A stretch of DNA of 36,106 bases from Gammaproteobacteria bacterium (lineage in GTDB: Bacteria > Pseudomonadota > Gammaproteobacteria > Pseudomonadales > JAUIET01). The DNA lies in contig JAUIHW010000040.1 in NCBI GenBank assembly GCA_030431775.1, forward strand, positions 1-36,106, written 5' to 3'. Every line of letters begins with the position of its first letter. The stretch's first letter is position 1. Shown piece after piece: positions 21,395 through 25,459 of the stretch. The position numbers and the translations under genes are program-made. The notes under the pieces are model-generated. The model saw only the letters and a list, made by a program, of their open reading frames with translations, did no database searches and had not been told where the DNA came from.

Positions 21395-21458
21395 TTAACA
21401 CCCCCACTCGCCCCTCATGGGTGGAGTTTACCCGTAACCACTCACCAGCCACCAGCAA

Positions 21459-21487
21459 TTGACAGCAACGGCATACGCTATTAAAGT
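21459..21487 (+). promoter_or_regulatory. Strong sigma-70 promoter reading into the repeat array and tRNA-Leu
   Basis: A perfect TTGACA (21459-21464), a 17-base spacer and TAAAGT (21482-21487, four of six) are followed by a GC-rich discriminator. A start near 21494 would place about 358 bases of leader, including a TGGGC/GCCCA hairpin (21505-21521) and four 82-bp repeats, ahead of the mature tRNA. Confidence 0.6.
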
Positions 21488-21523
21488 GCGTGGCCTTCTG
21501 GATATGGGCGTCATTTGCCCACA

Positions 21524-21851
21524 ACCCAGACGGTATTGTGGTAGACAAGGCGAAGCCTTAACCCACAGCGATGTGAAAATTTGGAAGAAATCCACCTTTC
21601 TATATGCCCAGGTGGTGTTGTGGTAGACAAGGCAAAGCCTTAAACCGCAGCGATACGAAAATTTGGAAGAAACCCACCTTTCTATATGCCCAGGTGGTGT
21701 TGTGGTAGACAAGGCAAAGCCTTAACCCACAGCGATGTGAAAATTTGGAAGAAATCCACCTTTCTATATGCCCAGGTGGTGTTGTGGTAGACAAGGCGAA
21801 GCCTTAAACCGCAGCGATGTGAAAATTTGGAAGAAATCCACCTTTCTATAT
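21524..21851 (+). repeat. Four 82-bp tandem repeats, each starting with a tRNA-Leu 5' fragment
   Basis: Units begin at 21524, 21606, 21688 and 21770, and the next period falls exactly on the tRNA-Leu start at 21852. The first 28 bases of each unit mirror the tRNA 5' end: GCCCAGGTGGTG (acceptor strand), then GGTAGAC of the D arm, one base shorter in the D loop. The remaining 54 bases carry an AAGGC/GCCTT mini-hairpin (loop GAA or AAA), and end CCACCT-TTCTATAT. CCACCT can pair with AGGTGG at the start of the next unit, including the real tRNA. Units 2-4 are identical over the tRNA-like part and differ at only a few other positions; unit 1 has four substitutions in its first 17 bases. No unit has a T arm or acceptor 3' strand, so none is a tRNA gene. 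Confidence 0.95.
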
Positions 21852-21938
21852 GCCCAGGTGGTGAAATTGGTAGACACGCTAGCTTCAGGTGCTAGTGGCC
21901 GCAAGGCCGTGGAGGTTCAAGTCCTCTCCTGGGCACCA
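21852..21938 (+). tRNA. tRNA-Leu, anticodon CAG
   Basis: A complete 87-base class II tRNA: acceptor GCCCAGG pairs with CCTGGGC, the D arm carries GGTAGAC, the anticodon stem is CTAGC/GCTAG with loop TTCAGGT (anticodon CAG, reading CUG), and the variable arm is GGCCGCAAGGCC. The T arm is GAGGTTCAAGTCCTC, and CCA is encoded. It closely resembles E. coli tRNA-Leu(CAG). Four repeats of its own 5' segment precede it, and a second copy of its 3' end follows. Confidence 0.97.
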
Positions 21939-21956
21939 TTACTCAGTCACTAACGT

Positions 21957-21993
21957 AGCTCAAGCTTTCAAAAGAGCTCGATTCGCGTTTTTT
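21957..21993 (+). terminator. Weak hairpin plus T6 after tRNA-Leu
   Basis: AGCTC (21957-21961) pairs with GAGCT (21974-21978) across a 12-base loop. A run of six T follows at 21988-21993, but nine bases separate stem and T run, so termination here is doubtful; the hairpin at 22122 is much better. Confidence 0.25.
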
Positions 21994-22077
21994 ATTCCCC
22001 AGAGGACTATTCAGTCAGGGCTCTCTATCCGCGCTACGCGCGTTAATGGTCCTGCCGTTCGAGCTTCCGCTCGAACT

Positions 22078-22094
22078 CTCTCCTGGGCACCATT
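22078..22094 (+). other. Second copy of the tRNA-Leu 3' end, candidate attachment-site core
   Basis: CTCTCCTGGGCACCATT at 22078-22094 repeats 21924-21940 exactly (17 bases), which is the T-arm/acceptor 3' strand with CCA and two bases beyond. Just before it is a 7-bp palindrome GTTCGAG/CTCGAAC that imitates a T arm. Duplicated tRNA 3' ends are the usual trace of tyrosine-recombinase integration. No further copy is visible to the right in this window, and no integrase gene is present. Confidence 0.6.
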
Positions 22095-22121
22095 TTGAAA
22101 AACGTCGAAAGACCACGAGAG

Positions 22122-22157
22122 ACCATTTAAGATACTGATTCTTAAATGGTTTTTTTT
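22122..22157 (+). terminator. Strong intrinsic terminator downstream of tRNA-Leu region
   Basis: ACCATTTAAG (22122-22131) pairs perfectly with CTTAAATGGT (22141-22150) around a nine-base loop and runs straight into eight T (22150-22157). It would end plus-strand transcription from the tRNA-Leu promoter. Confidence 0.85.
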
Positions 22158-22208
22158 GTTTATGCCTTCCACGTACATTGTCTCCCATCGTCTCAAATTG
22201 TCCCTTCT

Positions 22209-24302: not shown

Positions 24303-24662
24303 ATGTCCAGAGGTCCATACCGCCATCATAGCCCCCATTTCAAGTTGCAGTTATGCGCTGATATCCGCAGTGGCATCCTGGGGCGCCGGGAAGCGCAGAA
24401 GAAATACAAGTTATCAGCCAATCTAATTCAGTTGTGGCTTACGCAATTCGATTCTGGAGAACTCAACCAGGATCGAGCCGCCCAGTCTTTGATTACTGAG
24501 TACGAGGCTAAGATTGCAGCTCTTGAGCGTAAGGTAGGCCAACTGACGATGGAAATTGATCTGCTTAAAAAAACTCCGGTGAAGCCAGGAGAGATCGACA
24601 ACGACGAGTTATTGATCGTGAGCGGTCCAGAGCCTGTTCTATCCGAAGGGGGTGCCAGGTGA
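24303..24662 (+). CDS. IS3-family OrfA (helix-turn-helix transposase subunit)
   Basis: The 119-residue protein has an N-terminal helix-turn-helix of the IS3 OrfA type (ILGRREAQKKYKLSANLIQLWL, about 26-47, seen in pieces). A leucine-rich coiled coil at about 67-90 (AKIAALERKVGQLTMEIDLL) would mediate multimerisation. GAGGAG lies about eight bases before the ATG. A run of seven A at 24567-24573 could promote slippage: the -1 frame stays open from there into orfB, giving an OrfAB fusion transposase. The stop overlaps the orfB GTG in a GTGA arrangement. Confidence 0.9.
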   Translation: MSRGPYRHHSPHFKLQLCADIRSGILGRREAQKKYKLSANLIQLWLTQFDSGELNQDRAAQSLITEYEAKIAALERKVGQLTMEIDLLKKTPVKPGEIDNDELLIVSGPEPVLSEGGAR

Positions 24663-25459
24663 TCAACCTACCTCGAAGCACATATTACTATCGCTCCACT
24701 GCCAAACAACACGGCTTGTCAGATGCGCACCTGGTCGAACAGATCGGCACTATCAGGGATGAATTTCCTGGGTACGGCTATCGAAGAGTGACGCGTGAAT
24801 TAGCCGCTAGAGGCATTCTTGTAAACCATAAGCGGGTTGCTCGAATTATGCGAGAAAATGGCTTATCAGCAGTTCAGGCGCGTCGATTCGTGGCCACGAC
24901 AGACAGTGATCATGAAGAGCCAGTATTTCCAAACCTCTATCAAAATCAAATCCCTTCTAAACCCAATCAAGTCTGGGTTGGGGACATTACCTACATCCGT
25001 ATGCGCAATGGATTCGCCTACTTAGCGGCGCTATTGGATGCCTGCAGCCGCAAAGTCGTCGGATATGCATTGTCGCGTCGAATTGACACTGAGCTGACGC
25101 TCGCGGCACTGGAAGCCGCTTATCTGAGCCGATGTCCAGAGCCTGGTACCTGTATACACCACACGGATAGAGGGAGTCAGTATGCCAATAAACGGTACCG
25201 CAAAGCATTGAAGGATTACGGCTTGGTCGGGTCAATGAGCTCACCAAGGAATCCGTACCACAACGCACAGGCAGAGAGTTTTATGAAAACGCTCAAAGTT
25301 GAAGAGGTCTATTTGGACAGATACGAATCGTATCGAGATGTTGTTGCCAGATTGCCCCGGTTCATAGAAGATGTGTACAACGCCAAGCGCATGCACTCAG
25401 CGCTGGGATACGTGTCACCCAATCATTTTGAGGAGAAACTTGCCCGAAAAGCGGCTTAA
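24659..25459 (+). CDS. IS3-family OrfB (DDE integrase-type transposase)
   Basis: The 266-residue protein has an N-terminal HTH_21-like region (GYGYRRVTRELAARGI) and an rve integrase core with all three catalytic acids: D in VGDITYI, D in HTDRGSQYA and E in NAQAESFMKTLK. The C-terminal NAKRMHSALGYVSP is the usual IS3 ending. The start is GTG 24659, overlapping orfA by four bases, so it may be made by coupling as well as by frameshift with orfA. Confidence 0.93.
   Translation: MINLPRSTYYYRSTAKQHGLSDAHLVEQIGTIRDEFPGYGYRRVTRELAARGILVNHKRVARIMRENGLSAVQARRFVATTDSDHEEPVFPNLYQNQIPSKPNQVWVGDITYIRMRNGFAYLAALLDACSRKVVGYALSRRIDTELTLAALEAAYLSRCPEPGTCIHHTDRGSQYANKRYRKALKDYGLVGSMSSPRNPYHNAQAESFMKTLKVEEVYLDRYESYRDVVARLPRFIEDVYNAKRMHSALGYVSPNHFEEKLARKAA

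Follow-up and report, generated by a model that had tools for sequence, protein, structure and literature searches.

The window, by which we mean the whole 36,106-nucleotide stretch of gammaproteobacterial DNA analyzed here, contains a repeat array immediately upstream of a tRNA-Leu(CAG) gene that is very probably a conserved leader element. The core of the repeat consists of an altered D-arm, GGYGTTGTGGTAGAC, followed by a short hairpin, P2. Because similar repeats precede tRNA-Leu genes in distantly related bacteria, the array appears to represent an unrecognized RNA element. Neither the hairpin in each unit nor the old core family, with its covarying hairpin at other tRNA-Leu genes, figured in the initial annotation of this DNA.

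Four 82-bp repeats precede tRNA-Leu(CAG)

Four 82-bp units occupy positions 21524-21851 and run in phase up to the tRNA gene at 21852-21938. This arrangement, first described in the initial annotation, is confirmed by three lines of evidence: TRF identifies a sole array in the window (21525-21863; period 82, 4.1 copies, 93% matches, score 594), covariance-model matches place the unit starts at 21524, 21606, 21688, and 21770, and both ARAGORN and Rfam set the tRNA start at 21852, in exact phase with the units. Identity to the first 164-nt reference is 91% and 95% for the two copies that follow and 66% for the last copy, which continues into the tRNA. The features of the locus are as follows.

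21459-21487, + strand: promoter-like site TTGACA-17-TAAAGT (pattern search; present before the congener array too)
21524-21605, + strand: unit 1, 5' start decayed (repeat analysis; covariance-model match 21524-21561, 28.1 bits)
21547-21559, + strand: P2 hairpin of unit 1, AAGGCGAAGCCTT (sequence, fold, family-wide covariation)
21606-21687, + strand: unit 2 (repeat analysis; covariance model 52.9 bits)
21629-21641, + strand: P2 hairpin of unit 2, AAGGCAAAGCCTT (sequence, fold; alone p 0.11 against shuffles)
21688-21769, + strand: unit 3 (repeat analysis; covariance model 52.9 bits)
21711-21723, + strand: P2 hairpin of unit 3 (sequence, fold)
21770-21851, + strand: unit 4, last base adjoining the tRNA (repeat analysis; covariance model 50.2 bits)
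21793-21805, + strand: P2 hairpin of unit 4 (sequence, fold)
21838-21843, + strand: CCACCT, a possible, weakly supported partner of AGGTGG in its own unit or the tRNA (pairing tests)
21852-21938, + strand: tRNA-Leu(CAG) (ARAGORN, Rfam)

Units 2-4 open with the first 12 nt of tRNA-Leu(CAG), GCCCAGGTGGTG, after which TTGTGGTAGACA stands in place of the tRNA's AAATTGGTAGACA; they read TTGTGGTAGAC at the place of its AAATTGGTAGAC. The likeness to the tRNA spans about 25 positions rather than the 28 originally given. It had also been ascribed to every unit, which holds for units 2-4 and not for unit 1, where the GCCCAGG start is lost. From the tRNA-start copy, each unit passes into the hairpin AAGGC-RAA-GCCTT (5 bp) and then into a stretch of leader that has CCACCT close to its end.

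Read from sequence patterns, the layout is a promoter-like site, four units, the tRNA, and a terminator-like site (22117-22155), and the earlier placement of the array within a likely transcript is supported at that level. What had been called a good promoter is a promoter-like site: the bare pattern occurs at chance level (1 found against 0.8 expected from shuffles), but it also precedes the CAG array of the congener (1322-1350 of locus L029). The terminator-like pattern likewise occurs in about the number expected by chance (1 found).

ARAGORN finds one tRNA in the window, and none of the units holds a functional tRNA copy with a complete cloverleaf and T-arm. At gathering score, Rfam matches only the tRNA in the window, with no match to rtT RNA; in 13 related loci its matches are confined to tRNA and a group I intron. 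At E values up to 10 over 21400-22170 of the window, it adds a chance minus-strand match to ES173. CRISPR was dropped because the repeats match the adjacent tRNA, and att repeats of an integrative element because the copies, 82 bp apart, are too close for a gene to lie between them. An assembly artifact is unlikely, given that the units differ from each other and that the architecture recurs in other genomes.

Two further observations concern the downstream flank. The tRNA 3' end, CTCTCCTGGGCACCATT (21924-21940), occurs again 154 bp downstream at 22078-22094; the stretch between the copies is missing in the congener, a similar end is present on contig C98 (L002), and the repeat is probably the scar of an integrative element. 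At 24303-25459, two ORFs resemble an IS3-type transposase pair, as judged by eye from their translations.

A second array and the congener

Within the assembly of the window's genome (G000), the core is also found at the ends of contigs C96 and C78. The C96 array runs into tRNA-Leu(CAA). Its units alternate between 82 and 76 bp, the 158-bp double unit being 100% identical, and open with GCCAGAGTGGTG, the start of tRNA-Leu(CAA) and unlike that of tRNA-Leu(CAG), followed by the shared GTGTTGTGGTAGAC. The C96 and C78 ends overlap by 78 identical bases; if the contigs join there, the CAA array would contain about ten units. All 14 exact copies of GGTGTTGTGGTAGA in G000 fall within its two arrays.

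The initial annotation had suggested searching related genomes for the unit beside tRNA-Leu(CAG). The one congener compared (G001) has two diverged units there, of 135 and 84 nt, against four in the window, with the promoter-like site and downstream flank as in G000. Three units precede its tRNA-Leu(CAA): the one nearest the tRNA has an ordinary D-arm, and the other two match the model weakly (17.6 and 19.3 bits). A promoter-like TTGCAC-16-TATAAT lies before the CAA array in both genomes.

Each genome has 38 tRNA matches, and 75 of the 76 have at least 80 nt of upstream sequence. A 5' copy lies upstream (local score at least 14) at 8 of these 75 tRNAs, compared with 0 of 75 in a reversed control: Leu-CAG and Leu-CAA in both species, His and Met in G000, and Lys and Arg in G001. 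The remaining three tRNA-Leu genes per genome, Leu(UAA) included, have no upstream 5' copy, so that two of five are positive. The leaders of tRNA-His (G000) and tRNA-Lys (G001) share a homologous body, each headed by its own tRNA's 5' end, and among 18 relatives this body is found only in G000 and G001. At the G000 tRNA-Met (L245, upstream of 601), we observed a truncated pseudo-tRNA-Met, the ends of which pair (TGCGGG/CCCGCA), followed by a very strong hairpin (z -4.7).

The core recurs before tRNA-Leu genes in seven families

A covariance model of the core (R1), run on 369 genomes of the class, matched 30 genomes at E up to 0.01. Ten of the 369, spanning seven families, score at least 28 bits, and all ten have a unit directly before tRNA-Leu, within 91 bp; four of them (G738, G637, G688, and G531) lie outside the model-building set. 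Among the 20 genomes with a best match below 25 bits, none has a unit before tRNA-Leu: one match is the tRNA itself (G446), one has only a doubtful opposite-strand tRNA-Gln (G689), and 18 are without a tRNA.

Exact TGGYGTTGTGGTAGAC is present in 6 of the 369 class genomes, and the five besides G000 all have it in units before tRNA-Leu(UAA). Two MAG contigs, L161 (JAJDOF010000158.1) and L171 (JAASSE010000150.1), likewise carry units before tRNA-Leu(UAA), and in these and the class-genome loci the tRNA-adjoining unit measures 83-91 bp. At five loci (L171, L289, L348, L350, and L351), a Gly-Cys-Leu cluster holds the unit between its tRNA-Cys and tRNA-Leu(UAA) genes. The altered D-arm and the hairpin at the same place are found at three isoacceptors. 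Locus L349 has lost the acceptor copy and nevertheless keeps TGTGGTAGAC and P2, which points to the core as the persisting part.

The distribution is patchy. Units occur in two of eight genomes in the order of G445, or in two of the four that are 90% complete, and G471 is alone in its order. Among 390 genomes of the window's order, exact TGGYGTTGTGGTAGAC is found in G000 and in two others without a nearby tRNA, a motif that misses the diverged units of the congener; the covariance model covered, from this order, the few genomes included in the class set. GGTGTTGTGGTAGA alone is not diagnostic, as it occurs in 26 of 293 order genomes, and the 24 loci from genomes outside the two congeners are without a tRNA.

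In two gammaproteobacterial genomes that also have the repeats, an intron interrupts tRNA-Leu(UAA). That of L161 (311-670) scores 50.1 bits against the Rfam group I intron model, whose cut-off is 50; that of L289 was called by ARAGORN only.

P2 covaries across loci

The P2 sequences are almost wholly different between loci, yet the pairing is kept. We compared an alignment of 13 rows with 500 shuffles, a test that is indicative rather than exact because five of the rows either are closely related to another row or lie out of register, and relatedness by itself can lift sequences above their shuffles in the absence of structure. Paired cells amount to 77.2% against 51.4% in shuffles, cells changed on both sides to 22 against 8.4, and the covariation score to 0.515 against 0.176, none of which was reached in 500 shuffles. 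The other two of the five measures, pair count and pair type, were reached by 76 and 94 of 500. Sliding the P2 partner gave a score of at most 0.280, with 28-46% paired. Because P2 covaries, selection on an RNA hairpin is likely.

Folding energies are less uniform. Across 12 partly related units, the 21 nt that follow the motif are more stably folded than dinucleotide shuffles (combined p 6e-8). Taken singly, 6 of the 12 fall below p 0.05, the window's unit standing at p 0.11. Two of four out-of-sample P2 stretches pass (p 0.0005 and 0.007), and those of G688 and G531 fold no better than shuffles. Whole units are little better than shuffles (z +0.8 to -2.1) with two exceptions, unit A of the congener (z -3.25) and the G000 Met leader (z -4.7). 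The case for structure therefore rests on the covariation of P2.

Other tRNA-Leu leaders

A search for the general pattern returned at least 97 matches without, and at least 31 with, a recognized tRNA at the first copy; some of the former, in Stutzerimonas and Arthrobacter, resemble chance matches and were discarded on inspection by eye. In records mostly titled Flavobacteriaceae, this search found a single 5' half, reaching to the anticodon loop, before tRNA-Leu(UAG). Over 23 such loci, picked by eye and then by a fixed pattern and hence a biased selection, identity is 96% in the half, 87% in the tRNA, 75% in the leader, and 61% upstream. As raw counts with L178 excluded, 15 of 22 loci have TATATTTG in the 40 nt preceding the half, and 11 of 22 have it at 10-11 nt.

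It is possible, if doubtful, that these loci and the arrays belong to a bacteria-wide class of structured 5'-linked tRNA repeats, in which encoded tRNA 5' halves with a 3' hairpin, located in the same tRNA's leader, would control tRNA-Leu maturation or serve as dedicated small RNAs tied to tRNA-Leu output. On that same doubtful reading, the class would be tandem with an altered D-arm in Gammaproteobacteria, and single and extended to the anticodon loop in Flavobacteriaceae tRNA-Leu(UAG).

Two other kinds of leader came to light. In L103, titled Flavobacteriaceae, a CCCCGAAGTATCGGG hairpin breaks up the half-tRNA. Twelve tRNA-Leu(UAA) leaders, several titled Gastranaerophilales, contain a stretch antisense to the 5' part of their own tRNA (score at least 14; control 2 of 270): L064, L072, L073, L077, L094, L099, L104, L143, L145, L146, L159, and L176.

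Origin of the repeats

The sequences support an origin by partial duplication of the tRNA-Leu 5' end and its leader, amplified by unequal crossing-over. The last, partial copy of the repeat is the tRNA's own first bases. First units are decayed in the window, the CAA arrays, and L289, although none is in L161, L287, and L290; copy number differs between relatives, and the acceptor copies of L349 and L350 have drifted. The initial annotation had likewise proposed repeated unequal duplication, now kept homogeneous, and the identical double unit, the decayed first units, and the copy-number differences support it, with unequal exchange as the homogenizing process. Because such exchange between a unit and the start of the tRNA would hold the copies identical even without selection, acceptor identity alone is no evidence of function.

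Possible roles of the units

We tentatively propose, at somewhat below an even chance and on the strength of our computational analysis, that the units are structured leader RNA freed at tRNA maturation and most likely acting as small RNAs. They would constitute a leader or spacer element, the 5' counterpart of tRNA-linked repeats, with the altered D-arm and P2 as the working part. The array would be transcribed together with the tRNA, and RNase P cleavage at the first base of the tRNA would release the leader. Endonucleases would then cut this leader into hairpin RNAs of unit size, whose output would follow that of tRNA-Leu. Once freed, these may act in trans by binding a protein or other RNAs, as reported for rrB and 3'ETS-leuZ of E. 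coli. Behind this reading stand the position of the units, the promoter-like site in common with the congener, the recurrence in front of tRNA-Leu in several families, the covariation of P2, and the differing copy numbers; transcription, processing, release, and action in trans are inferred. Outside the core, the bodies vary from locus to locus, so that a common trans target is conjectural. Three leaders of the genus carry CAGGANG loops, which we take to resemble CsrA/RsmA sites: four in G000 His (L227), two in G001 Lys (L253), and two in unit A of G001 Leu-CAG (L029). CAGGA(A/C/T)G density in these leaders, which were picked after the motif was seen and with loop placement judged by eye, is 14-16 per kb against 0.28 per kb over 30 loci of the genus. 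The window units have no CAGGANG loop; each has one weak ATTT-GGAAG-AAAT, again by eye.

Rather unlikely, in our estimation, is that the repeats are mostly neutral relics, that is, partial tandem tRNA duplications that expand, shrink, and decay, with the P2 palindrome kept by template switching instead of selection. Such a process would fit the decayed units of the window, the CAA arrays, L289, and L349-L351, the lack of units in most genomes searched, and the several tRNA types affected in the genus (8 of 75 tRNAs). Upstream 5' copies against downstream 3' copies, at 6 versus 2 of 48 tRNAs, likewise give no firm excess, as 4 of the 6 and 1 of the 2 are loci added for their arrays; a 5'-over-3' excess was rejected as unsound on account of those four. 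What speaks against neutrality is the altered D-arm with its hairpin at the same place at three isoacceptors in seven families.

A further reading places the function in cis. Pairing is possible between the tail CCRYCT and the AGGTGG of either its own unit or the tRNA, and L161 differs on both sides (GGATG/CATCC). The CCACCT:AGGTGG pairing proposed at the outset is possible at 21838-21843 of the window and weak against controls: compared with shuffled tails the excess is small (Fisher p 0.024 over 10 loci and 0.018 over 15), and the G000 CAA array fails the test. At least five leader-tRNA pairs occur in 13 of 15 array loci, compared with 54 of 72 other tRNAs of the genus and 66 of 177 other tRNA-Leu. 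Given these controls, leader-tRNA pairing was rejected as the conserved function.

It is unlikely, though the idea stays alive on folding models, that the units provide decoy 5' strands. In this scheme, the acceptor copies would compete for the 3' acceptor strand of the tRNA and CCACCT would occupy the true 5' strand, so that the balance would set RNase P maturation and copy number would act as a dial. The initial annotation had suggested that the half-molecules could fold the tRNA 5' end, and predicted folds support competition with tRNA folding in part. With exactly one unit attached, 3' acceptor capture is 0.92-0.99 in seven of eight loci (8 of 13 array loci tested) and shuffling of the first 12 nt lowers it to 0.08-0.44 in these seven; with a 90-nt leader, it is at least 0.69 in 9 of 13 array loci and exceeds 0.5 in 10 of 67 control tRNAs. 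Shuffling the body, however, leaves capture at 0.70-0.99, so the conserved core is not needed for it. In the G000 CAA array, the natural unit captures 0.04 and a shuffled body 0.78, yet the value is 0.92 with a 90-nt leader. Capture in the window swings with leader length (0.97, 0.10, and 0.33 at 90, 180, and 270 nt) and with the number of units (0.97 with one, 0.99 with two, 0.11 with all). In G738, G637, G688, and G531, capture is at most 0.18. The Flavobacteriaceae halves exceed 0.5 in 12 of 22 loci and match the acceptor of their own tRNA no more closely than the acceptors of others (6.2 versus 6.0 of 7). All these values come from a folding model without tRNA tertiary contacts, and decoy action would leave the conserved D-arm variant and P2 unaccounted for.

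A small mobile or recombinase-recognized hairpin element (REP-like or att-like) inserting at tRNA 5' ends is very improbable: a homologous body does stand at tRNA-His in one species and tRNA-Lys in the other, and the hairpin beside GTAG resembles REP elements, but the exact GGTGTTGTGGTAGA copies of G000 are confined to two arrays (14 of 14), the P2 sequence is not conserved, and none of 46 viral contigs with TGGYGTTGTGGTAGAC has the motif before tRNA-Leu. A phage or plasmid origin was also discarded, as only the tRNA part of the query was matched in the 20 listed of 116 phage records and the 20 listed of 129 plasmid records.

Comparison with known systems

Leaders of tRNAs are usually regarded as throw-away sequence. 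If a covarying element is tied to tRNA-Leu leaders in several families, tRNA precursors would bear regulatory or small-RNA parts of their own on the 5' side, as the TLRs of Escherichia coli do on the 3' side. The arrays are also compact natural copy-number variants for tests of RNase P site choice and of competition in tRNA folding.

Remnants of tRNAs left by integrative elements are usually 3' copies beside islands. The window units resemble them as partial tRNA copies near tRNA genes; unlike them, they are 5' copies, in phase, in tandem, and adjoining a promoter-like site. A full-text search of the open PubMed Central literature found no paper on 5'-end tRNA repeats among the matches listed.

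RNAs cut from rRNA and tRNA precursors offer a second comparison. According to one account, E. coli rrA/rrB/rrF and 3'ETS-leuZ are such RNAs; rrB binds Hfq and CsrA in vitro, the rrA/rrB/rrF study itself saw no clear phenotype, and the sponge RNA 3'ETS-leuZ is the 3' spacer of the glyW-cysT-leuZ transcript (PMC8144298). As there described, these RNAs are 3' spacers, whereas the window units lie in a 5' leader, from which they would be released. The Gly-Cys-Leu cluster of L171, L289, L348, L350, and L351 is an operon of the same kind as glyW-cysT-leuZ in that account.

The TLRs (tRNA-linked repeats), according to the same source, comprise 22 genes at ten loci, with 3'-end tRNA copies downstream; they lie within tRNA or rRNA transcripts, carry an exact piece of the neighboring tRNA, number one to five per locus, and are of unsettled function (PMC8144298). 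The tyrT repeat among them has a covarying structure, according to a second source (PMC8250186). With these repeats, including the tyrT repeats and rtT RNA, the window array shares a common layout: repeats with a piece of the neighboring tRNA, likely within its transcript. They differ in that TLRs lie downstream and copy 18-19 bp of the 3' end, whereas the window units lie upstream and copy the first 12 nt, followed by the altered D-arm. As the units copy the 5' end of the tRNA that follows them, in place of the 3' end that defines TLRs, and share their layout, we regard them as a 5' variant of the TLR kind. The initial annotation had cited the tyrT repeats as a loose precedent; the relationship is closer than that, and the E. 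coli TLRs are the nearest known kind.
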